From positions 310,001 to 374,000 of the forward strand of contig NZ_AQXU01000025.1 of NCBI RefSeq assembly GCF_000376945.1: DNA of 64,000 bases. Direction: 5' to 3'. Origin of the DNA: Leeia oryzae DSM 17879 (GTDB taxonomy: Bacteria > Pseudomonadota > Gammaproteobacteria > Burkholderiales > Leeiaceae). This document shows, piece after piece, positions 13,633 through 44,117 of the stretch (position 1 is its first letter; every line of letters begins with the position of its first letter). Under the pieces are notes generated by a model. The model had not been told where the DNA came from, did not search any database, and saw nothing but the letters and a program-made list of their open reading frames with translations. The translations under genes were made by a program, and so were the position numbers.

Positions 13633-14184
13633 ATGCCTGTTACACCCTATCTTGAAACCCGACCGACACTGGGCAAAGATTGCTACCTGCATCAAAGCGC
13701 ACAGGTCATCGGCGATGTCGTCCTGGGTGACGAGAGTTCCGTCTGGTGCAACACGGTAATCCGGGGTGACGTCAATCATGTCCATATCGGTCATCACAGC
13801 AATATCCAGGATCTGACCATGTGCCACGTTTCCCACAAGACACCGGCCAAACCCGAAGGCTCGCCGCTCGTGATCGGCAATTATGTCACCATTGGCCACA
13901 GCGTCATTCTGCATGGCTGCCAGATCGGCAATGAGGTCCTGGTCGGCATGGGGTCCATCGTCATGGACGATGTCATTATCGAAGATCAGGTCATGATTGG
14001 CGCAGGCAGTCTGGTACCGCCAGGCAAACGTCTAGAAAGCGGTCACCTGTACATTGGCAGACCCGTCAAGGCAGTACGCACACTCACGGACGACGAGCGC
14101 CAGTTCCTGCGTTATTCTGCCGAGCACTACGTGCGCGTCAAGAACAATCACCTGAAGACAGAAGCAGCCAATAGCGCCGAATAA
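13633..14184 (+). CDS. Gamma-carbonic anhydrase family protein
   Basis: Left-handed beta-helix protein of the gamma-carbonic anhydrase/YrdA/PaaY class. Hexapeptide turns run through almost the whole 183 residues. The metal-binding histidines are recognisable in HVHIGHHSNIQD, MCHVSHKT and IGHSVILHG. A GGAG ribosome site lies eight bases before the ATG. Many members of this family have weak or no carbonic anhydrase activity, so the reaction is not certain. It is divergent from oligopeptidase A (174 bases between), and its transcript converges on engB. Confidence 0.92.
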   Translation: MPVTPYLETRPTLGKDCYLHQSAQVIGDVVLGDESSVWCNTVIRGDVNHVHIGHHSNIQDLTMCHVSHKTPAKPEGSPLVIGNYVTIGHSVILHGCQIGNEVLVGMGSIVMDDVIIEDQVMIGAGSLVPPGKRLESGHLYIGRPVKAVRTLTDDERQFLRYSAEHYVRVKNNHLKTEAANSAE

Positions 14185-14213
14185 CCGGGTTGCCGGCCCG
14201 CTGCACATGCAAT

Positions 14214-14241
14214 AAAAAAGCCCCAGTCAATGACCGGGGCT
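14214..14241 (-). terminator. Intrinsic terminator after engB
   Basis: Stem 14219-14241 (AGCCCC.GTC paired with GAC.GGGGCT, one mismatch, loop AAT), followed on the minus strand by a T run at 14214-14218. It is oriented for engB and placed between the convergent gamma-carbonic anhydrase and engB. Confidence 0.85.
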
Positions 14242-14346
14242 CAAAACCTTGATACTTGAACAAGGCACCCGCTCAGGGAGGGAAGCGGGGAGCATCGTAG
14301 CGCTCACAAGTGAGAGTCAAGTACCGGAAAAAAGTTCCAGAAATAA

Positions 14347-14973
14347 TCAGGCATTCGCCTTTTCTTCTACTGCATCGGTATCGTCTTCACCATACAGCCA
14401 GCCCAGCACGCGCTTCTCTGCCTCTTCCACCCCGGTTTTCTTCAGACTGGAGAACAGTTGCACCGAGATTTGTGGCCATTCTGCAACAGCCTTTTTCACC
14501 TCGCTTAATTGCTTGGCAGACTCCTGGCGGGTCAGCTTGTCGGACTTGGTCAGCAAGATATGAATCGGCTTGCCGGTGGGAGCAAACCACTCCAGCATCT
14601 GCCAGTCCAGGTCTTTCAGCGGATGACGACTGTCCATGATCACGACCAGGCCTTTCAGCTCGTCACGCGAGCGCAGGTACTCGCCCAGCAAGCCTTCCCA
14701 GTGCTTGCGTACGGCATTAGGCACCTGGGCATAGCCATAGCCAGGCAAGTCGACCACATGCACGCCATCGGTAATTTCAAAATAATTGATATGCTGGGTA
14801 CGCCCAGGGGTTTTACTGGTAAACGCAAGTCGTGTATGTTTTGCCAGTGTATTGATCGCACTGGATTTGCCGGCATTCGAGCGCCCGGCAAAGGCGACTT
14901 CAGCCACTGTCTGCGGCAAATCGACCAAATGGTTGACCGTAATAAAGAATTTGAGCTGTTGCAAACTGGGCAT
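14347..14973 (-). CDS. engB: Ribosome biogenesis GTPase EngB/YsxC (YihA)
   Basis: Small TRAFAC-class GTPase needed for large-subunit assembly. The G-motifs are visible: P-loop GRSNAGKSS (residues 30-38), switch region [12 protein letters not shown]3 in [10 protein letters not shown], and G4 LTKSDKL. The 208-residue length is typical. It is divergent from the cytochrome c4 gene, as in many betaproteobacteria and gammaproteobacteria where engB and c4 are adjacent. It ends before a clear terminator. Confidence 0.96.
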
Positions 14974-34228: not shown

Positions 34229-35695
34229 TCATAGACCATGATCCAGCCGGATCAAAGCCGCCCGCCCGGCAGTCGTGAGTGACTCCGCCAGCGCCGTCGC
34301 CAGCCGGTCCAGTGACTGGTCCAAAGCATTGGCAGTAGATACGGCTGGCTGTACCTCGCACCCGGCCCATGCCAGCAGGGCAGCAACCACGTCAGGTGTA
34401 TCAAACAGGCCGTGCAGGTAACACCCCATGATGTGCCCGTCCTGGCTCAAGGCACCGTCCAGGAGCTTGTCCGGCCCCAGCGTCAGCATGGATGTGACAG
34501 GGCCATGGTAATGCGTTTGCCCGTGATGGATCTCGTAACCGTGCACCGGGACAGAATGGCCGCTGAGTTGCATGTAGCCCTGGGTCTGTTTGAGCGTTTT
34601 GTCTGGCGCCAGGGTCGTTTGCAATGGCAGATACCCCAGTCCCTCACTCTCGCCCGCCTCGCCTTCCACTCCGTCTGGGTCTGCAATGCGAGTGCCCAGC
34701 ATCTGGTAGCCGCCACAAATGCCGATCAACTTGCCGCCGTAGCGCAGATGCTTCTGGATAGCGATATCCCAGCCCTGTTGCCGCAGCCAGGCCAGATCGC
34801 TGCGGGTGTTCTTGCTGCCGGGCAGAATCAGCAGGTCGGCAGGGGGTAAGGCCTGCCCCGGGTGCGCAAACACCAGATCGACCCCGGGCTGCCGTCGCAA
34901 GGGGTCAAAATCGCTGTGATTGGAAATGTGCGGCAAGGTAACCACCACCACCTTGAACGCACCGTTGCCGGATGAGGCTTTCGGCAGGGCATCTTCAGCG
35001 GCAATGTCCAGATCCATCAGGTAAGGTACCACGGCCAGCACCGGTTTGCCGGTCTGTGCTTCCAGCCAGTCGATACCGGGTTGCAGCAGGCTGATATCGC
35101 CACGGAAGCGATTGATGATAAACCCTTCGATGCGTGCCTGTTCGTTGGCCGATAAACAGGCCAAGGTGCCGACAAAGTGGGCAAACACGCCGCCCCGATC
35201 GATATCGGCGACCAGCCACACCGGGCAGTCCGCCTCTTCGGCAAAGCCCATGTTGGCAATGTCCCCTTCCCGCAGATTCACCTCTGCCGGGCTGCCCGCC
35301 CCTTCTACTACCACCCAGTCGTATTGGCTGGCCAATCGTTGCCATGACATAAACACCGCCGCTTTGGCCTGGCGCTTGTAGGCATGATAATCCACCGCAT
35401 GCAGATTGCCGATGGATTTACCGTGGATGATGACCTGGGCCATGCAGTCGCTGCTGGGTTTTAACAGGACGGGATTATGGTCGGTATGTGCCGGGATCCG
35501 GCAAGCAGCCGCCTGCACCGCTTGCGCGCGGCCAATTTCACCACCGTCTGCAGTGACAGCGCTATTGAGCGCCATATTCTGGGGCTTGAAGGGGGCGACA
35601 CGCCGTCCCCGACGGGCCAGCAACCGGCACAGCGCAGCCACCATGGTGGTTTTGCCAGCATCCGAGGTGCAGCCCTGAATCATTAACGTAGGCAT
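34229..35695 (-). CDS. cobQ: Cobyric acid synthase
   Basis: ATP- and glutamine-dependent amidation of adenosylcobyrinic acid a,c-diamide to adenosylcobyric acid. The N-terminal synthetase domain begins with a P-loop in [15 protein letters not shown], and the class I amidotransferase domain holds the nucleophile cysteine in [11 protein letters not shown] and the histidine in YLHGLFD. The length of 488 residues is normal. It is the last gene of the cobalamin operon, 13 bases after cobC. Its substrate must be supplied by a corrin pathway or by salvage, since no corrin-ring genes are in the window. Confidence 0.95.
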
Positions 35696-35708
35696 GGTAA
35701 TTGATACT

Positions 35709-36233
35709 TCAATAGTCGATCAGATACGGGACCATATGGTCGATACGGGCTTGCCAGCGGTCATGGGCAGGGATGATACCCGCATCACTCAAGGCCATGC
35801 GGATAACCCCGGCATGGGTCACGATGACTTGCGGTCTGGCCAGCCGCTCCGATTGCAACCCATCCACAAAGGTTTGCCAGCGGGTTTGCAACTGCGAGGC
35901 AGATTCCCCTCCCCCGGGGCAAAAATGCCAGATGTCCTGCGCCCACGCGTCCAGCTCGGCACGCGGAACCTCGTCCCAGGGCATGCCCTCCCAAACTCCA
36001 AAGTCCAGCTCCTGCAAACAGGTACTGGTAAGATAGACCGGAGACAGCTGTGCGGCCAGTTGCTGGCACCGCTGGGCCGGGCTGCTCCAGACATCGTATG
36101 CCTCCGGCAGCGCAGCATGTAGCGCTGGCAAGGCGGTCTGCATGCCGGGCAGATCAGGGGCGATATCCAGCCGGCCATAACAGCGTCGGTCACCTTCCGG
36201 GCAAGGCGAATGGCGCAGCAGAATCACCTGCAC
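35709..36233 (-). CDS. cobC: Alpha-ribazole phosphatase-type histidine phosphatase
   Basis: Histidine-phosphatase superfamily protein, here most likely CobC, which dephosphorylates alpha-ribazole 5'-phosphate or cobalamin 5'-phosphate. The RHG-type motif is [10 protein letters not shown] with the catalytic histidine near residue 8, followed by [10 protein letters not shown] (typical of CobC) and the second histidine in [12 protein letters not shown] use the GTG at 36233; another GTG at 36227 would give a GTGA overlap with btuD. Either way the protein is about 174 residues. Context inside the cobalamin operon supports the assignment. Confidence 0.85.
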
Positions 36234-36994
36234 GGCAAAAACCACGGCATACCGTGCCGGTCCAGCGCCTCTACCGGGCAATGATACAGCTGGCTCAGGT
36301 TGTCTGCCGTTAGTTGCGCCGCAACCGTACCGGCTTGCCAGCGGCCATCGCCAAACAGCATCAATACATGGCTGGCAAACGCCCATGCATGGTTTGGATC
36401 ATGACTGACCACCACCATACCTTTACCCGCTTCGGCCAGTTGCTGCAGTTGCTGCAACCCGGCCTGCTGGTGGCGGATATCCAGCTGCGACAGCGGCTCG
36501 TCCAGCAGCAGCCAGTCGGTTTGCTGGGCCATCACCGCGGCCAGACTGGCCCTGCGCCGCTCGCCGCCAGACAGGGTGGCCAGATCGTGCGCAGCCAGAT
36601 GCGCAATGTCCAGACGCGCCAGCATGTCTAAGGCGATGCGCCGGTCCGTGTCGCTCTCCCACGACCAGCGCGGGATATAAGGATGACGCCCAGTGAGGGA
36701 TTTTTCCATCACCGTCATCGGGAAGGGGTGCTCATCCTGCTGTGACAACCATGCCAACTGCGTGGCGCGCTGCCCAGAAGGAAGCCGAGCAATATCGGTA
36801 CCGCCTAACGTGACAGCACCCGCAGATGGCGGCATCCATCCGGCCAGTACCGACAGCAGGGTACTCTTGCCGCAGCCATTTTCTCCTAGTACCAGCCAGC
36901 GCTCGCCCGGCTGCAAGGTCAGGGACAGGTCGCGGCACAAGGTTCGATCGCCCTGCTGCAGCACGACCCCGTGCAACTGGATCGCCGCGCTCAT
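36224..36994 (-). CDS. btuD: Cobalamin ABC transporter, ATP-binding protein
   Basis: ATPase of the vitamin B12 importer BtuCDF. Walker A is GENGCGKST, the signature is LSGGERRRASLA, Walker B is WLLLDEP, and the switch histidine is in VVVSHDPNHAW. 256 residues from the ATG at 36994, which overlaps the btuC stop (ATGA). The FecCD-type transporter could also carry iron chelates, but the B12 operon context makes corrinoids the likely substrate. Confidence 0.9.
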   Translation of the reverse strand: MSAAIQLHGVVLQQGDRTLCRDLSLTLQPGERWLVLGENGCGKSTLLSVLAGWMPPSAGAVTLGGTDIARLPSGQRATQLAWLSQQDEHPFPMTVMEKSLTGRHPYIPRWSWESDTDRRIALDMLARLDIAHLAAHDLATLSGGERRRASLAAVMAQQTDWLLLDEPLSQLDIRHQQAGLQQLQQLAEAGKGMVVVSHDPNHAWAFASHVLMLFGDGRWQAGTVAAQLTADNLSQLYHCPVEALDRHGMPWFLPCR

Positions 36995-37977
36995 GTCATC
37001 CCCCGTTGCCGTAACAGCCACAGGAACACAGGCACCCCGACCAGTGCGGTAATCACCCCGACCGGAATTTGCTGCGGAGCCAGCACCATGCGCCCCACCA
37101 TATCGGCCAGCACCAGCACGATACCGCCCCCCAGCGCACTGGCAGGCAATAACAGACGCAAATCAGTCCCCAGCATCAACCGCAGGGCATGGGGCACAAT
37201 CAGGCCGACAAAACCGATCATGCCCGCCGTTGTCACGGCCAGCGCCGTTGCTATGGCAACGAGCACATATAACCCCGTCCGCAGACGGCGAATCGGCAGC
37301 CCCAGCGCATGTGCGGGTTGCACACCGTGGCCCAGCAGGTTCAAATCCCGGGCAAACGGCCAGATCAGTGCCAGCAATACACCCAGTCCGGCCAGTGGCC
37401 AAGCGCCATCGGCACCCGACAAATCCCCCAGCAGCCAAAACACCATGCCGCGCAGCAAACCGTCCGGCGCCAGACTGAGCAACAGGGCATTCAGGGCCAC
37501 ACAAAACGAAGACACGGCCACGCCGGTCAGCAGCAGCCGGGTCTGGGCTGCAGACCGGTCATAACCGGCAAACAGAAACACCAGCAAAATGCTGGCAAAA
37601 GCCCCCACCCCTGCAGAGACCGAGACAATCACCGCACCGGCACCCAGCAGCATGGCCAGCAAAGCCCCCACTCCAGCCGCCCCGGCTGTCCCCAGCACGT
37701 AAGGGTCTGCCTTGGGGTTTCTCAGCAAAACCTGCTGCACCGTTCCGGCCAGTGCCAGCAAACCACCGACTGCCAGCGCAGCCAAGGTTCTTGGCAAGCG
37801 CAGTTGCAGGATGACATCCTTCGCCAACTGCTGGTCAGCGCCGGCTTGCCACCACTGCCAGGGACGATAGGTGGTGCTGCCAACGCACACACTCAGCAAT
37901 GCCATGCACAGCCACAGCGTCGCCAGGGCAAGGAGGACAACCAGCATGCGCCGCAGGGTCAGATGCGTGGCTACCAT
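36991..37977 (-). CDS. btuC: Cobalamin ABC transporter, permease (FecCD family)
   Basis: Inner-membrane permease of a FecCD-type importer. 328 residues with about ten hydrophobic segments. Typical motifs are LRLPRTLAALAVGGLLALAGTVQQVLLRNP with DPYVLGTAGAAGVGALLA, and GFVGLIVPHALRLMLGTD near the C-terminus, which contacts the ATPase. The ATG at 37977 overlaps btuF by seven bases; the longer upstream frame lies inside btuF and is not likely coding. Assigned to B12 by its neighbours. Confidence 0.9.
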   Translation of the reverse strand: MVATHLTLRRMLVVLLALATLWLCMALLSVCVGSTTYRPWQWWQAGADQQLAKDVILQLRLPRTLAALAVGGLLALAGTVQQVLLRNPKADPYVLGTAGAAGVGALLAMLLGAGAVIVSVSAGVGAFASILLVFLFAGYDRSAAQTRLLLTGVAVSSFCVALNALLLSLAPDGLLRGMVFWLLGDLSGADGAWPLAGLGVLLALIWPFARDLNLLGHGVQPAHALGLPIRRLRTGLYVLVAIATALAVTTAGMIGFVGLIVPHALRLMLGTDLRLLLPASALGGGIVLVLADMVGRMVLAPQQIPVGVITALVGVPVFLWLLRQRGMT

Positions 37978-38855
37978 TTCCTGGCCCTCTCTACTGCCTG
38001 GCACAGCGCAGCCACGCCGTCCGCCAGCCTTGGCCCCATCCGGGTCAGCAAATCTTTTGGCAAGGTCACCAGTTGCTGATGTTTCACCGCCATGATCGAT
38101 GGCCATGCCTTCCAGGGTTGCAGATCGGCTGCACCACTCTCGGCACTGTTAAGGATCATCTCCGGGTTGGCCACAATCACCGCTTCCTCATCTACGGTGG
38201 GCACCAAAGTAGGCAAATCGGCAAAGACATTGCGAGCCCCGCAGACGCGCATGGCATCCGAGATGATCTGCGCTTTGTTGATGGTCATTAAGGGTCTGCG
38301 CCACACCAGATAAAACACCCGCACCGCTTTTTTGTGCGCGTAGCGACGACGCAAGGTCTCAATCTTGCCGGCGAATTGCTGCCCGGCCAGCTGGGCCTGC
38401 CCGGTTTGTCCGGTCAGCACACCCAGCCGTTGTAATACGGTCGGAACATCGCTTAATTGCTGCGCGTTATCCATAAATACCGGAATCCCCAATTGGGCCA
38501 GACGGGCGAGTTGCGGTTGCGGGTTACCCGACTGCCAGGCGACGATCAGGTCCGGTTTCAAGGCACGAATCTTTTCTAGGTCCAGCCCGCTATAGCCCCC
38601 CACCCGCGGTATGCTGACAGCCGCCGCAGGGTAATCACTGTAATCGACCGCACCGACCACCCGGTCGCCTACGCCAATCGCAAACAGATCCTCAGTCAGA
38701 TGGGGAGACAAGCTGACAATACGCTTGGCCGGGCCGGCCAGGACAACTGGCTTGCCCGCATCATCCACCACGCGTAATTCGGCCAGTGCAGGCAATTGCC
38801 ACAAGCTCGCACACAGCACCAGCAGACCGCTTATCCGGTAACCCACGCTTACCAC
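37971..38855 (-). CDS. btuF: Periplasmic cobalamin-binding protein
   Basis: Class III solute-binding protein delivering corrinoid from BtuB to BtuCD. A signal peptide (residues 1-25, ending QLPALA) is followed by two lobes: RIVSLSPHLTEDLFAIGVGDRVVGAVDYSDYP and LEKIRALKPDLIVAWQSGN are typical of BtuF. The length of 294 residues is normal. The start is GTG at 38855, overlapping the cobO stop; a second GTG at 38846 is possible. Cotranscribed with btuC and btuD. Confidence 0.9.
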   Translation of the reverse strand: MVSVGYRISGLLVLCASLWQLPALAELRVVDDAGKPVVLAGPAKRIVSLSPHLTEDLFAIGVGDRVVGAVDYSDYPAAAVSIPRVGGYSGLDLEKIRALKPDLIVAWQSGNPQPQLARLAQLGIPVFMDNAQQLSDVPTVLQRLGVLTGQTGQAQLAGQQFAGKIETLRRRYAHKKAVRVFYLVWRRPLMTINKAQIISDAMRVCGARNVFADLPTLVPTVDEEAVIVANPEMILNSAESGAADLQPWKAWPSIMAVKHQQLVTLPKDLLTRMGPRLADGVAALCQAVERARKW

Positions 38856-39457
38856 TCCACCCCTTTTTGAGCCCGGATACCGGCCTCATAGGCATGCTTT
38901 TCCGGGCGCATCTCGGTCACCGTGTCCGCGATATCGGTCAGCACTGGCTGCGCACCGCGCCCTGTCACCACCACATGTTGCATCTCGGGTCGGGACAGCA
39001 AATCCTGGCGAATCATCTCCCCATCCAGAAAACCATACTGGATGCAGTACGTCAGTTCATCCAGCACCACCAGATCATACGCCGGGTTTTGCAGCATTTT
39101 CTGTGCCATTTCCCAGGCGGTTTGCGCCTTTTGCTGATCCTGGGCCAGGTTCTGGGTATCCCAGGTAAAACCATCGCCCATCACATGCCACTCTACGCCA
39201 GGCTGGCGAGAGAAAAAGGCTTCCTCACCGGTATCAGTACGTCCCTTGATGAACTGTACTACCCCTACCCGCAGCCCATGCCCCAGCGCACGGGCCACCA
39301 TGCCAAAGGCCGAAGACGACTTGCCTTTGCCGTTGCCGGTCAGCACCAGCAGCAAACCGGTATCGACATTGGCCTCGGCAATTTTCTGGTCAATCAGCGC
39401 TTTCTTGCGGGCCATCCGTGCCGCATAGCGGCTTGCTTTATCTGTATCTGTCGTCAT
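38849..39457 (-). CDS. cobO: Corrinoid adenosyltransferase (CobA/CobO/BtuR type)
   Basis: Transfers the adenosyl group from ATP to the cobalt of cobalamin or cobinamide, needed for both salvage and de novo routes. The P-loop is GNGKGKSSSAFG near residue 42, and VGVVQFIKGRTDTGE, VVLDELTYCIQYGFL and VVTGRGAQPVL match the family. 202 residues from the ATG at 39457, which follows GGAAGAATGAG. It lies four bases after cobT. Confidence 0.95.
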   Translation of the reverse strand: MTTDTDKASRYAARMARKKALIDQKIAEANVDTGLLLVLTGNGKGKSSSAFGMVARALGHGLRVGVVQFIKGRTDTGEEAFFSRQPGVEWHVMGDGFTWDTQNLAQDQQKAQTAWEMAQKMLQNPAYDLVVLDELTYCIQYGFLDGEMIRQDLLSRPEMQHVVVTGRGAQPVLTDIADTVTEMRPEKHAYEAGIRAQKGVEW

Positions 39458-39461
39458 GGTC

Positions 39462-40508
39462 TCATTCTTCCTTCTGGCTGACACTCGCCTCGGCAAAGGT
39501 CGCCATCTGCGCATGCAGTTCACACGCCAGTTTCAGGATCGGTACGGCCGCTGCCGCACCGCTTGCTTCCCCAAGGCGCATGCCCAGCTGTAGCAGCGGT
39601 CTGGCCTGCATCGCTTCCAGCACCCATTGGTGGGCCGGCTCTGCCGACTGGTGCCCGAAAATCAGCCAGTCACGTACACCGGGGTTGATACGGCACGCAG
39701 CCAATGCCGACACCGAACTGATAAACCCGTCCACCAGGCACGGCAAGCCCGCCTGTGCCGCCCGGATATACGCCCCACAGATCGCGGCCACTTCATAACC
39801 GCCCATGGCGGCCAATTCGTCTTCGGTATCCGTCAGCCCGGCATGGGTCGCCAGGATATCGTTGAGCACTCGCACCTTGTGCACCACACCCGCAGGGGCC
39901 AAGCCCGTACCGGGGCCAGCCACCGCCTCTGCCGGCATCTGCAGCCAGCGTGCGGCCAGCGCACTGGCAACCGTTGTATTGCCGATCCCCATTTCGCCAG
40001 CAATAAACACATCCGCATATGAAGACAACGCACGCTCTACCGCGCTGGCCCCGACATAAAATGCCTGATGCAACTGCACCATGGTCATGGCTGGCACATG
40101 CCGGCAATTGGCCGTACCTGGCGATATCTTGGCTTGTACTACAGACGCAAGATGACGTGTATCCGCCTCTACCCCTACGTCAACCACTTCGAACCTGGCC
40201 GACAATGCTTTGGCCAATACGCAAATCGCCGCCCCGCCCTGTACAAAATTGGCCACCATTTGCGCCGTCACCGCCCTTGGGAAAGCAGACACGCCCTCCA
40301 GCGCAATACCATGGTCTGCCGCAAACACCGTAATCCACGGCGCAACAATATGCGGCTGTTCCACACCCTGCATCCCGGCCAGTGTCACGGCCAGATTTTC
40401 CAGCTCACCCAGCGCACCCGCCGGTTTGGTCAATTGTGACTGCCGGTGCAAGGCCTGTTGTCTTGCGTCTTCACTTACCGGTTTTACCGGCTCCGTCCAC
40501 CAGTTCAT
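39462..40508 (-). CDS. cobT: Nicotinate-nucleotide--dimethylbenzimidazole phosphoribosyltransferase
   Basis: Makes alpha-ribazole phosphate, the lower-ligand precursor of cobalamin. Conserved stretches include FAADHGIALEGVSAFP, FVQGGAAICVLA, and GIGNTTVASALAARWL. The general base glutamate is expected near the C-terminus (LRLGEASGAAAAVP). 348 residues from the ATG at 40508; the start overlaps the cobU stop (ATGA). The source of dimethylbenzimidazole is not seen here. Confidence 0.95.
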   Translation of the reverse strand: MNWWTEPVKPVSEDARQQALHRQSQLTKPAGALGELENLAVTLAGMQGVEQPHIVAPWITVFAADHGIALEGVSAFPRAVTAQMVANFVQGGAAICVLAKALSARFEVVDVGVEADTRHLASVVQAKISPGTANCRHVPAMTMVQLHQAFYVGASAVERALSSYADVFIAGEMGIGNTTVASALAARWLQMPAEAVAGPGTGLAPAGVVHKVRVLNDILATHAGLTDTEDELAAMGGYEVAAICGAYIRAAQAGLPCLVDGFISSVSALAACRINPGVRDWLIFGHQSAEPAHQWVLEAMQARPLLQLGMRLGEASGAAAAVPILKLACELHAQMATFAEASVSQKEE

Positions 40509-41032
40509 CGCGTTCCCGTTTCGTTTTTCATGGTCAGCGGCAGCCCTGCCACCACCAGCTCCACCCGCTGGCATGCTGCGGCCAGTCGCTGGTGCAAGCG
40601 GCCAACCTCATCCGCAAACCGCCTCGCCAGTGCGGACTCAGGCACAATACTCCAGCCCACCTCGTTACTCACCAAAATCACCTCGGCTTGTAGTCGGGGC
40701 AATATGGCCAGCAAAGCATCGGTCTCCCGTGCCAATAACGTTTCATCCTCTGCCAGCAGCAGATTGGTCTGCCAAAGTGTCAGGCAATCCACCAGCAGGC
40801 AGCATCCTGCTGCATCCGCCTGCTGCAAGGCAGAGGCCAGATACAACGGAGACTCCACGGTATGCCAATGTGCGGGCCTGTCCGCCTGGTGCCGGGTAAT
40901 CCGCTCGGCCATTTCGCCGTCAGAGGCGGTCGCCGTTGCAATCAGTGTAACCTCTGCAAAGGTACTGGCCAGCGCCTGCGCGCGCGCACTTTTACCACTC
41001 CGGCGACCGCCAAGGATAAGGGTAGAGGTCAT
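40505..41032 (-). CDS. cobU: Adenosylcobinamide kinase/adenosylcobinamide-phosphate guanylyltransferase
   Basis: Bifunctional CobU/CobP, which phosphorylates adenosylcobinamide and then adds GMP to give adenosylcobinamide-GDP, the substrate of CobS. The P-loop is LILGGRRSGKSARA at the N-terminus, the guanylylated histidine region is RITRHQADRPAHWHTVE, and DCLTLW plus VSNEVGWSIVPES complete the family pattern. 175 residues from the ATG at 41032. It begins one base after the btuB stop. Confidence 0.95.
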   Translation of the reverse strand: MTSTLILGGRRSGKSARAQALASTFAEVTLIATATASDGEMAERITRHQADRPAHWHTVESPLYLASALQQADAAGCCLLVDCLTLWQTNLLLAEDETLLARETDALLAILPRLQAEVILVSNEVGWSIVPESALARRFADEVGRLHQRLAAACQRVELVVAGLPLTMKNETGTR

Positions 41033-41033
41033 G

Positions 41034-42899
41034 TTATTGCTTAGGATTCCAGGTGAGTGATAACCATGCCGTCCGGCCAGGTGCACGGAAACCCCAAGCG
41101 GGCAAATAGGCTTTACCCAGCAGATTCTTGATACTTAGCCGTAATTTCCAGTCATTATCCAGCTGGTAATCAGTACCCATATCCAGTAACGCATAGCCAC
41201 CTAACTGCCTGGTGTTATTGCTATCTTCACGCCGGCCCACCATTTTCAGATTCAGGAATGGCGACCATTGTCCGTAGTGCGTAGATATCTGGATATTCCC
41301 CTGATGGCTGGCACGGCGAATCAATTGCTTGCCGGTTTCATCATTGATGGCATGCAACCAGTCCAGATTGGCATCTACATTAATATCTTCACCGAGTTTA
41401 TCCTGCCAGTGCAATGTGGCACCTTTCAAGGTTGCCGAAGCCACATTCACCGGGCTCCATGGTGCAAAGTCATCGGTTGGGTCTGTAGAGCGCCATTCGA
41501 TCAGGTCTTTTACCCTGTTTTTATACACCACCAGCGAGACTGTCCGACGATCTGACTGGTAGCGAATACCGGCTTCAACATTCTTGCTGGACTCTGGTTT
41601 AAGCAGGGGGTTACCGTTGCTGCCATATGGGTCAATATAATACAGGTCATTGAAAGTGGGGGCCTTGAAAGAGCTGCCTCCACCGGCATAGACACGCCAT
41701 TCCGGGGTCAGATGCCAGCCCAGCATCAAAGATCCGGTCGTCTTGTGACCAAACTGGCTATCGCGAGTGGTACGGGCATCGGCCTGCCAATCCAGTGCGC
41801 CTGCTTCACCATGCCAGCCAGCCCATACGGCGCGTTGCGTACGCCGATTCACGCTTAGCGCCGATGTCCCGCCAATGTGCTGGCTTACATGCTCTGCCCC
41901 CAGCAATAATTTACCGATGGGTAAGGCGATACTGTTATCTACTGACAGGCGGTTTTCCGTACTGACATATTGAGCAGCGTACGGCGCGTTTGAATAATCC
42001 AATGCACTATAAAAGTTGTCATCAATACTGCGCGACCAGCGCACCTGGCTTTGCCAGCTCTCCGTCCAGCGACTATCCGCAAACAGTTGAAATTCCTGGT
42101 TTTTCTGAATCTGGTAATCATCATGTGCGATCTGGCTGGTATCCAGTTCGGACTTGGTATCCGAGTAGCGCAATACAGCACCCAGCGTATGCTGGTCGGT
42201 CACTTGTCGGCTGACGCGGATGCTGGCTGCTCTCTGGCGGTACCCATCCTTATCCGGGTCATGGAATGACGAGCCATCCGGACGGGCATCAATACCGGTT
42301 TCCGATTTCTCAGAAGCCTGCAATGCAATAGAGGTCCCACTCTGGTTGCCAGATGCACCGACTGATAGCAATCGGCCACCAAGGCTGCCTGCGCCAATCG
42401 TTACCGTTGGCAGGAGCTGTCCGGAGCCTTTCTTGGTGAATACCTGAACCACCCCTCCAATGGCATCACTGCCATACAGGCTACTGGCGGAGGCGCGGTA
42501 AACCTCGATGTGATCAATCTGCTCCAGCGGCAGGTTCTCAAGCGCCATGGCTCCCAGGGTTAAAGAACCGACGCGGACACCGTCCACCAGAACCACGGTA
42601 TGCCCGGTGTTGGTCCCGCGCACGTACATGGTGGCTGACGCACCGGCAGAACCCAGCTGATACACCTGCAACCCGCCCACGCGCGACAATACGTCTGTGA
42701 TGGTAGCCGCGCCCGACTTGCGGATATCTGCAGCGGTAATCTTGGTTACATCACCAATCACCTGCGCTTCGGGCGTCGCCACCCGGGTCGCGGTAATCAC
42801 GGTTTCGGGCAGTTCAAAGGCATCTTCGGCCCAGGCCGACACGCCGGCCGCCATGCTAGAACATATAAATGGAATCACAACAGAATAACGATACTTCAC
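41034..42899 (-). CDS. btuB: TonB-dependent vitamin B12 receptor
   Basis: Outer-membrane barrel importing cobalamin with TonB energy. I choose the GTG at 42899: AGGGAG lies seven bases upstream and a signal peptide follows (VKYRYSVVIPFICSSMAAGVSAWA). The TonB box region is PETVITATR, the plug domain (about residues 40-155) includes VLSRVGGLQVYQLG and VYRASASSLYGSDAIGGVVQV, and the barrel ends LSLTWNPKQ. 621 residues is similar to E. coli BtuB. Expression is very probably controlled by the cobalamin riboswitch in the leader. It is the first gene of the operon. Confidence 0.93.
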   Translation of the reverse strand: MKYRYSVVIPFICSSMAAGVSAWAEDAFELPETVITATRVATPEAQVIGDVTKITAADIRKSGAATITDVLSRVGGLQVYQLGSAGASATMYVRGTNTGHTVVLVDGVRVGSLTLGAMALENLPLEQIDHIEVYRASASSLYGSDAIGGVVQVFTKKGSGQLLPTVTIGAGSLGGRLLSVGASGNQSGTSIALQASEKSETGIDARPDGSSFHDPDKDGYRQRAASIRVSRQVTDQHTLGAVLRYSDTKSELDTSQIAHDDYQIQKNQEFQLFADSRWTESWQSQVRWSRSIDDNFYSALDYSNAPYAAQYVSTENRLSVDNSIALPIGKLLLGAEHVSQHIGGTSALSVNRRTQRAVWAGWHGEAGALDWQADARTTRDSQFGHKTTGSLMLGWHLTPEWRVYAGGGSSFKAPTFNDLYYIDPYGSNGNPLLKPESSKNVEAGIRYQSDRRTVSLVVYKNRVKDLIEWRSTDPTDDFAPWSPVNVASATLKGATLHWQDKLGEDINVDANLDWLHAINDETGKQLIRRASHQGNIQISTHYGQWSPFLNLKMVGRREDSNNTRQLGGYALLDMGTDYQLDNDWKLRLSIKNLLGKAYLPAWGFRAPGRTAWLSLTWNPKQ

Positions 42900-42913
42900 C
42901 AAACATCTCCCTG

Positions 42914-42936
42914 ATGCCACGCCCGCTGCATGGCAT
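42914..42936 (-). promoter_or_regulatory. Hairpin adjacent to the btuB ribosome binding site
   Basis: A 9-bp stem (ATGCCATGC paired with GCGTGGCAT, one G-U pair) with a five-base loop, ending one base before the AGGGAG ribosome site at 42907-42912 on the minus strand. It sits where a riboswitch expression platform that controls translation would be. The pairing is seen directly; the regulatory role is inferred. Confidence 0.55.
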
Positions 42937-43084
42937 GATCAAAATAAAGACAGGGAAAACGTCGGGAAACATGAGGGGCCATCGCAAGCGCAACGGTATC
43001 CAGAAGATCCCGCCGCGTGCACCCTGCCGAGCGTAATGTCACCCTGCTGGCGGCTATCGCCGGCCAAGCAGGCTGCACCGGTTT

Positions 43085-43262
43085 GCAAGAGGCAAACCGC
43101 CCAAGGCCGGTATCCGGACTCATCAGACTTGGTTTTCCGCCTTCCCACGCTTTTCTGCGCAGTGGCCTGATGGAAAACCCACACTGAATTACCGTTGCAG
43201 GGGCAGTACAGGCATTTCACCTGTTTCCCGTTTAACACCCCGAAAACTCGCATTTCCAGGGT
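43085..43262 (-). ncRNA. Cobalamin riboswitch (AdoCbl aptamer)
   Basis: The minus strand carries the aptamer core: GGTGTTAAACGGGAAACAGG, then the GAAATGCCTGTACTGCCCC and CTGCAACGGTAA elements, and at 43105-43120 the B12 box AGTCCGGATACCGGCC preceded by CTGATG. These are the hallmark conserved parts of the widespread cobalamin riboswitch. It precedes btuB by about 185 bases and would repress the whole salvage operon when adenosylcobalamin is plentiful. The exact edges are approximate. Confidence 0.95.
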
Positions 43263-43281
43263 AGCACCTTGAAGAAAATGA

Positions 43282-43290
43282 ATTATAACA
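43282..43290 (-). promoter_or_regulatory. Extended -10 promoter of the btuB operon
   Basis: The minus strand reads TGTTATAAT, a perfect extended -10 (TGnTATAAT), about 20 bases ahead of the riboswitch core. No consensus -35 is seen, which is usual for extended -10 promoters. It predicts a leader of roughly 375 bases before btuB. Confidence 0.6.
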
Positions 43291-43385
43291 GCAAGCCATA
43301 CTGAAATTACTTCATAATTCCTGCCAAAATGGCAAAATTAGCCTGCAGCTTACATAATTACAACACCCCCCATTGGCCCATTTAT

Positions 43386-44117
43386 ATGAAACAACGCTGG
43401 ATCACCTTTCTGATGGCGGTGCAATTCCTGACCCGCTTGCCCACACCCCGGATCGACCCTTTCAATCCGGCCCTGCTACCGGCATCAGCAATCTGGTTTC
43501 CACTGGTCGGGCTGATCATCGGCAGTCTCTTATGGCTCGCAGCATGGGTCGGGCATCTGCTAGATCCCTGGCTGGCGGCGGTGCTTTGTCTGATGTTCTG
43601 GGTCTGGGTAACCGGCGGCTTGCATCTGGACGGTCTGGCCGATATGAGTGATGCCCTGGGGGCAGCCCATCGAGACCCGGCCAGATTTCTGGCAGTCCTT
43701 AAAGACCCGCATCTTGGCAGCTTTGGCGTTATCGCACTGGTCATGCAACTACTGGCCAAACTGGTCGGCCTCATGCTGCTCGTCAAGCAGCAGCATCTGG
43801 CTTATCTGCTCTTGATCCCCGCATGGGCACGGCTGGGCACCCTTTACTGGTCCAGAACGCTCCCACCGCTTGGCCACGGCATGGCAGAACAATTCCAGTG
43901 GCAATTCAGTCGCCATGTCCTGTGGATATGGGCCGCACTGCTCATGATAGCCAGCGCATGGCTAGCCCCGGCCTTACTGGCAGCCCTCGCATTAACTTGG
44001 TGGTGGAAGCACTTCCTGATCAAACGGGTGGGGGGGGTCACGGGAGACTGCCTTGGCGCAGGAGTCGAAATCCTCGAATCCGGGTTATTGCTGCTGGGTG
44101 CGATTCCGCTCATCTGA
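43386..44117 (+). CDS. cobS: Adenosylcobinamide-GDP ribazoletransferase (cobalamin synthase)
   Basis: Membrane enzyme joining adenosylcobinamide-GDP with alpha-ribazole (phosphate), the last assembly step. 243 residues from the ATG at 43386 (MKQRWITFLMAVQFLTRLP, the usual N-terminus). Several hydrophobic segments and the motifs GGLHLDGLADMSDALG, LKDPHLGSFG and RVGGVTGDCLGAGVEI are present. The RVGGV codons contain a run of eight G bases (44030-44037), a possible slippage site. The gene is divergent from the rest of the operon and is therefore not under the same riboswitch. A hairpin follows. Confidence 0.94.
   Translation: MKQRWITFLMAVQFLTRLPTPRIDPFNPALLPASAIWFPLVGLIIGSLLWLAAWVGHLLDPWLAAVLCLMFWVWVTGGLHLDGLADMSDALGAAHRDPARFLAVLKDPHLGSFGVIALVMQLLAKLVGLMLLVKQQHLAYLLLIPAWARLGTLYWSRTLPPLGHGMAEQFQWQFSRHVLWIWAALLMIASAWLAPALLAALALTWWWKHFLIKRVGGVTGDCLGAGVEILESGLLLLGAIPLI

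Follow-up and report, generated by a model that had tools for sequence, protein, structure and literature searches.

A class I cobalamin riboswitch proposed to close the btuB ribosome-binding site through competing L5, L13 and anti-Shine-Dalgarno pairings

The leader of btuB in Leeia oryzae raises the question of how a cobalamin aptamer could pass on ligand binding to the ribosome-binding site of the gene that follows it. We approached this question in a window of 64,000 nt (the whole stretch of DNA that was analysed) and by comparison with the corresponding leaders of relatives. Our reading, drawn from sequence comparison, is that the leader probably forms a class I cobalamin riboswitch by which translation of btuB is switched OFF, and that this control probably extends to a nine-gene operon for B12 uptake and salvage.

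The minus strand from 43286 to 43088 matches Rfam RF00174 over the full length of the model (positions 1–189) with 114.1 bits (E 7.4e-28, cut-off 31.5), a score and span that place it in the family, and this match is the sole one found across the genome. Both traits by which members of RF00174 are recognized, a C-rich L5 and a B12 box, are present, and the full-length alignment of 199 nt includes the large, peripheral P6 extension that marks the class I subtype. The leader from 43286 to 42890 folds with a z score of -3.59, and none of 100 shuffled sequences was as stable. A preliminary description of this DNA had already recognized a cobalamin riboswitch aptamer, which the family match bears out; the range that it gave, 42900–43265, falls 21 nt short of the aptamer's 5′ end. 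We dropped the loop of the P5 hairpin as a candidate for L5 and use the name for the C-rich stretch CCCC(C/U)GC, which is the stretch that changes with L13 and corresponds to the C-rich loop in the available text of an earlier study (PMC2258182).

Pfam matches identify btuB, whose product has a signal-peptide-like N-terminus (VKYRYSVVIPFICSSMAAGVSAWA, judged by eye), and eight further genes in the order btuB-cobU-cobT-cobO-btuF-btuC-btuD-cobC-cobQ (Table 1). The junctions, in operon order, measure +1, -4, +4, -7, -7, -4, -10 and +13 nt, lengths that depend on the starts chosen for btuC (ATG, 37977) and cobC (GTG, 36233). The overlapping junctions of the preliminary description therefore hold for five of the eight (4, 7, 7, 4 and 10 nt), whereas the other three are gaps of 1, 4 and 13 nt. 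Judged from these junctions, control of the whole operon through translational coupling is plausible.

Divergent from the riboswitch lies cobS (Pfam CobS, 43329–44117, plus strand), with a likely ATG at 43389 and about 100 nt to the aptamer; this B12-synthesis gene is outside the riboswitch transcript despite the common intergenic region. Elsewhere in the window, positions 14212–14291 of the minus strand match the anti-hemB small RNA (RF02837, 65.9 bits, cut-off 49.5) between a transferase-like gene (13633–14184, plus strand) and a YihA/EngB-like GTPase gene (14347–14973, minus strand), both named by eye. No hemB was recognized among the listed open frames of at least 120 aa between 12800 and 16000, and the antisense function that the name suggests may thus not hold here.

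Table 1 Features of the btuB leader and of the genes downstream, in window coordinates
Feature	Coordinates	Strand	Basis
Cobalamin riboswitch aptamer; B12 box GCCACUG at 43160–43166	43088–43286	-	Rfam RF00174
L5, GCCCCUGC; proposed aptamer half of the kissing loop	43197–43204	-	Aptamer alignment; joint change with L13
Pair of hairpins in the spacer separating P1 from P13 (43098–43080 and 43072–43043)	43043–43098	-	Fold
P13/L13 hairpin; L13 core GCAGGG at 43022–43027; GGCAGGG at 43022–43028 also proposed anti-anti-SD	43011–43033	-	Isolated fold; six Watson-Crick pairs with L5
Hairpin directly 3′ of L13 (CGCGGCGGGAUC...CCGUUGCG), overlapping the 3′ arm of P13	42989–43017	-	Fold
Proposed anti-SD, UUUUCCCUGUC; partners SD (UUUCCCUG:CAGGGAGA) or L13 (CCCUGUC:GGCAGGG)	42949–42959	-	Comparison and forced folds
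9-bp hairpin, loop AGCGG; proposed sequestor tip	42914–42936	-	Coordinates; same-place hairpins in relatives
Shine-Dalgarno (SD) AGGGAG	42907–42912	-	Sequence
btuB, GTG start; TonB-dependent receptor	41034–42899	-	Pfam PF00593 and PF07715
Downstream operon, eight genes	34229–41032	-	Pfam; starts and junctions
cobU	40505–41032	-	Pfam
cobT	39462–40508	-	Pfam
cobO	38849–39457	-	Pfam
btuF, periplasmic binding protein (named by context)	37971–38855	-	Pfam
btuC, ABC permease	36991–37977	-	Pfam
btuD, ABC ATPase	36224–36994	-	Pfam
cobC, histidine-phosphatase-family protein (named by context)	35709–36233	-	Pfam
cobQ	34229–35695	-	Pfam

Joint change of L5 and L13 among relatives

Rfam searches returned matches in 105 of 120 relatives; in the families of two of these relatives, 9 of 10 genomes and all of 43 genomes matched. 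The working set comprises 153 loci, namely the window and 100, 16 and 36 loci fetched from relatives, with four duplicates left out. Among the first 101 loci, window included, a BtuB-like frame lies downstream in 93 (1.8 kb away in one of them) and is lacking in 8. Four genomes of one genus (G152, G155, G158 and G159) have two cobalamin riboswitches each, about 18 kb apart, and all of the paired loci (L163/L196, L167/L197, L174/L198 and L168/L199) carry a platform of the GGCAGGG type.

In the window, L5 is complementary to the GCAGGG of L13. Across the 153 loci, GCAGGG occurs no further than about 110 nt from the aptamer in 34 of the 37 loci whose L5 reads CCCUGC, and GGCAGGG is present in all 34; where L5 reads CCCCGC, GCAGGG occurs in 8 of 106 loci and GCGGG in 82. 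Three CCCUGC loci miss GCAGGG. One, L154, precedes a different gene; in the other two, L190 and L194, GGCAGGG lies further downstream, apparently because the Rfam match stops early. Starts in the set were assigned by a rule (SD plus frame) that may be wrong for some loci, and two of the 34 window-type loci (L125 and L145) have TTG.

Both states of L5 also occur within four genera, in which every GGCAGGG found accompanies L5 CCCUGC. The window's own genus is mixed in this way (G001 versus G000 and G002), as are three others (G022 and G111 versus five others, G138 versus two, and G149 and G150 versus G148). Within 160 nt, GGCAGGG is absent from every CCCCGC locus of the four mixed genera, some of which also lack the GCGGGG forms that were searched for (L090 has none). 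These comparisons argue most strongly that the kissing partner in the window's group would be GGCAGGG rather than the hairpin at the SD. Exchange of L5 and L13 inside single genera amounts to a natural compensatory-mutation experiment on the kissing loop; complementarity and joint change are the two lines of evidence for the link from aptamer to expression platform that characterizes RF00174. A second GCAGGG in the window (43042–43047, minus strand), in the 3′ arm of spacer hairpin 43072–43043, could be an L5 decoy or chance. The same-genus genome G002 has one GCAGGG only and, by eye, no counterpart of this spacer hairpin.

Competing helices at the btuB ribosome-binding site

The mechanism that we propose has two states. 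Without ligand, GGCAGGG of L13 (43028–43022) would pair with CCCUGUC of the anti-SD (42955–42949), leaving the SD free. Docking of adenosylcobalamin, or of a related corrinoid, would bring L5 into a kissing interaction with GCAGGG of L13, upon which the anti-SD would lose its partner, UUUCCCUG would pair with CAGGGAGA and the SD would be closed, the 9-bp hairpin stacking as the tip of the sequestor in this OFF state. Both the ligand and the direction of the switch are what we infer for this leader.

The spacing of the elements is conserved. GGCAGGG lies 103–129 nt from the start in 34 loci, and in 20 of 22 leaders the best 7-nt complement to L13, searched over about 100 nt, lies 47–63 nt before the start; it is elsewhere in L191 and L192, and in L125, one of the 20, it is tied with a site at 73. 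The match reaches p < 0.05 singly in 8 of the 22, and the Fisher p value is 1.8e-6 for all 22; for 10 loci that represent nine genera, it is 7e-4. Comparison across loci supports the arrangement of a translational platform, in which an anti-SD with a second possible partner sequesters the SD, while the window's own L13:anti-SD match, taken alone, does not exceed chance (p 0.73) and rests on the common position.

The same site also fits the SD. In position-fixed tests that, like the search for the L13 complement above, were chosen after the results of free duplex searches were in hand, and with permutation results inflated by kinship among loci, a site picked by L13 complementarity alone has its adjoining 6 nt paired in register with the SD flank at 84 of 132 positions (69.8 ± 4.4 permuted; 3/5000), and contiguous pairs number 61 in the 22 leaders (38.8 ± 4.6 permuted; 0/5000) and 32 in the 10 loci from nine genera (17.5 ± 4.1 permuted; 6/10000). 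The total number of pairs in those 10 loci, 37 of 60, is not significant (reached by 1336 of 10000 permutations). The contiguous run is zero in the fixed register in 9 of the 22 leaders, including three from one genus (L163, L178 and L195) in which a neighbouring UCUCCUG serves the SD. The free duplex-energy searches yielded little or no signal, with mean z scores of -0.55 for L13 against the linker and -1.31 for the linker against the SD in 25 leaders. In 86 loci, p ≤ 0.05 was reached by the L13 flank in 9 and by the SD in 16, and the two sites overlapped in 43 against 38.3 expected. We consider these searches to be of low power because short G+C-rich stretches match anywhere.

When forced, both helices can form in each of the 16 leaders tested. 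They share 1–7 bases of the anti-SD in 13 of these, 5 nt in the window, whereas in the other three (again L163, L178 and L195) the best partners of L13 and SD are neighbouring, separate sites. Forced folds of the window have energies of -52.2 kcal/mol with L13:anti-SD and -55.1 kcal/mol with anti-SD:SD. In isolation the platform prefers the OFF form, the margin being 2.9 kcal/mol and the SD unpaired probability 0.01, so that the ON state would need co-transcriptional folding in which the anti-SD is made before the SD.

Hairpins similar to the one directly 3′ of L13 are seen by eye, uncounted, in relatives. In L101, L065, L102, L066, L059 and others, GGAAAU before the first L13 hairpin is complementary, again by eye, to a downstream AUUUCC, which matches an SD of the GGAA type and may represent the same relay in other letters; the general duplex test of it is weak.

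The 9-bp hairpin (AUGCCAUGC-AGCGG-GCGUGGCAU, one U-G pair included) is followed by a single C (42913), the SD, 7 nt and the GTG. The preliminary description, which had it ending one base before the AGGGAG of a GTG-started btuB, is exact on this point. Its wider proposal, an expression platform acting at the btuB ribosome site, agrees with the lack of terminator-like sites and with the conserved competing pairings of L5, L13, anti-SD and SD, which also provide the pairing between aptamer and platform that it had left to be sought; the part that falls away is the hairpin as sequestor. As placed in the sequence, the hairpin is not the sequestor: it lies between anti-SD and SD, excludes the SD, and has a loop that does not follow L5. 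A search confined to hairpins that end 9–24 nt before the start, which set pairing and rough place by its construction and had no shuffle control, yielded one for 84 of 86 leaders, and 61 of these 84 have GGG at the loop or beside it. The weight lies on the stems, which show several pair types at each position and change among close relatives of the window. Between 40 and 13 nt before the start, none of the 34 window-type loci has GCAGGG, 13 have GCGGG and 31 have GGG, and the loop at this place in G002 is AAUAAC, without a G run.

Two L5-complementary loops occur together in another group. A set of 63 leaders combines L5 CCCGC with a BtuB-like gene and 75–235 nt from aptamer to start. In these, GCGGG or CGGGG is found within 45 nt of the aptamer in 42, at 13–36 nt before the start in 40, and at both places in 30; 200 rounds of shuffling gave 16.8, 7.7 ± 2.5 and 2.0 (at most 5), respectively. 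The doubled loops are real as a sequence feature of these leaders. They could reflect a two-step lock with tandem L13 loops, in which L5 is handed during transcription from the aptamer-side loop, the anti-anti-SD, to the loop of the hairpin touching the SD, which in the window would be the 9-bp hairpin. We regard this as doubtful. In the window's group the second loop does not change along with L5, which speaks against its kissing L5, and GGG is kept, which speaks for it. No description of two L13 loops was found in the titles and abstract openings among the papers listed, and the published text consulted offered no explanation for the doubling. Vitreschak et al. (2003) is reportedly an older study of B12 elements.

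Other routes of control

Transcription could be the main point of control, with Rho terminating it in a ligand-dependent manner, within the leader or near the beginning of btuB, and the translation block secondary. Escherichia coli btuB does use Rho, within the coding region and after the translation block, according to the available text of PMC11162775, and in the window, too, Rho-dependent loss of the mRNA may follow the stop of translation. As the main control, Rho seems unlikely to us. A scan of 42800–43500, itself blind to Rho, found no terminator-like sites (0.8 expected), as befits a translational platform. The leader and the first ~390 nt of btuB contain no clearly C-rich, G-poor stretch (C-G at most 0.12 in 50-nt windows), and the conserved pairing of the SD argues that translation is the first step.

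A reading in which the 9-bp hairpin takes the role of L13, so that kissing by L5 would directly obstruct the ribosome, is distinctly unlikely; short leaders whose one L13-like hairpin adjoins the SD may work in this way. Its loop and the next G give GCGGG, which could form 5 pairs with CCUGC of L5 (one G-U), and three pairs suffice in one kissing loop studied in the accessible part of PMC10653944. Several short leaders have a single hairpin, of the GCGGG type and about 25 nt before the start, and both the excess of such motifs near the start of CCCGC leaders and the GGG of the window-type loci point the same way. Against it, the window-type loci never have GCAGGG there despite their L5 CCCUGC, and G002 keeps the other L13 beside a loop without a G run.

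Coupling to a leader peptide, encoded by a 75- (or 28-) codon frame whose UGA overlaps the btuB GTG (GUGA), is very improbable: the frame is open from within the aptamer to the start codon, with 75 codons from the first ATG, and termination-reinitiation has a precedent in uPPE2 before ppe2 (available sections of PMC11260477), but a 75-codon open run ends there in 76 of 600 shuffles, none of its three ATGs is preceded by an SD of at least 4 nt, and the longest ATG-started frame of that kind in G002 is 2 codons, so we treat the overlap as chance. Of the 34 window-type loci, 9, window included, have an ATG frame of at least 28 codons that ends no more than 8 nt from the start (30–80 codons in 8 of the other 33), but these frames stop at differing places (+1, -2, -3), and the peptide similarity to the window's frame (L163 best, 31% over 62 residues, E 9e-5; L172, L191 and L181 short and weak) is, in our reading, largely confined to the aptamer and L13 region, whose RNA is conserved in any case.

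Relation to known cobalamin riboswitches

The reading that we prefer, in which L13 is shared between L5 and the anti-SD, is now a set of named base pairs with comparative support and could be tested by a few short mutants. Expression platforms vary, and further mechanisms likely remain, as stated in the part of PMC10653944 available. In the Priestia megaterium metE corrinoid riboswitch described there, L5-L13 kissing couples ligand to downstream alternative helices, as proposed for the window; unlike the window, its platform is a transcriptional terminator.

The E. coli btuB riboswitch (locus L200, RF00174 87.0 bits) controls the same gene. Its ON state has an anti-SD:anti-anti-SD helix and its OFF state sequesters the SD, and a Rho step is documented in E. 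coli in the sections available (PMC11162775). It differs from the window in its AUG start and in its L5 region, GCUGACGCGC versus GCCCCUGC.

For the Mycobacterium tuberculosis metE riboswitch, probing and reporter mutants in the available text of PMC11260477 support the same logic, in which L13 pairs with the anti-TIR unless the kissing loop captures it. Several of its features parallel those of the window's element: it is presented there as class I, its L13 hairpin doubles as anti-anti-TIR, the anti-TIR lies about 60 nt further on and is freed by kissing to occlude the SD, and no intrinsic terminator is reported as found in that text. The gene, phylum and sequences differ, and the window's switch is one proposed from sequence; the window also has a hairpin with a G-rich loop between anti-SD and SD, and its L5/anti-SD and L13/SD share CCCUG/CAGGG. 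The window thus contains an ordinary type of B12 sensor, placed in the leader of a gene for B12 uptake; the switch design proposed for it is already known from another bacterial B12 riboswitch.
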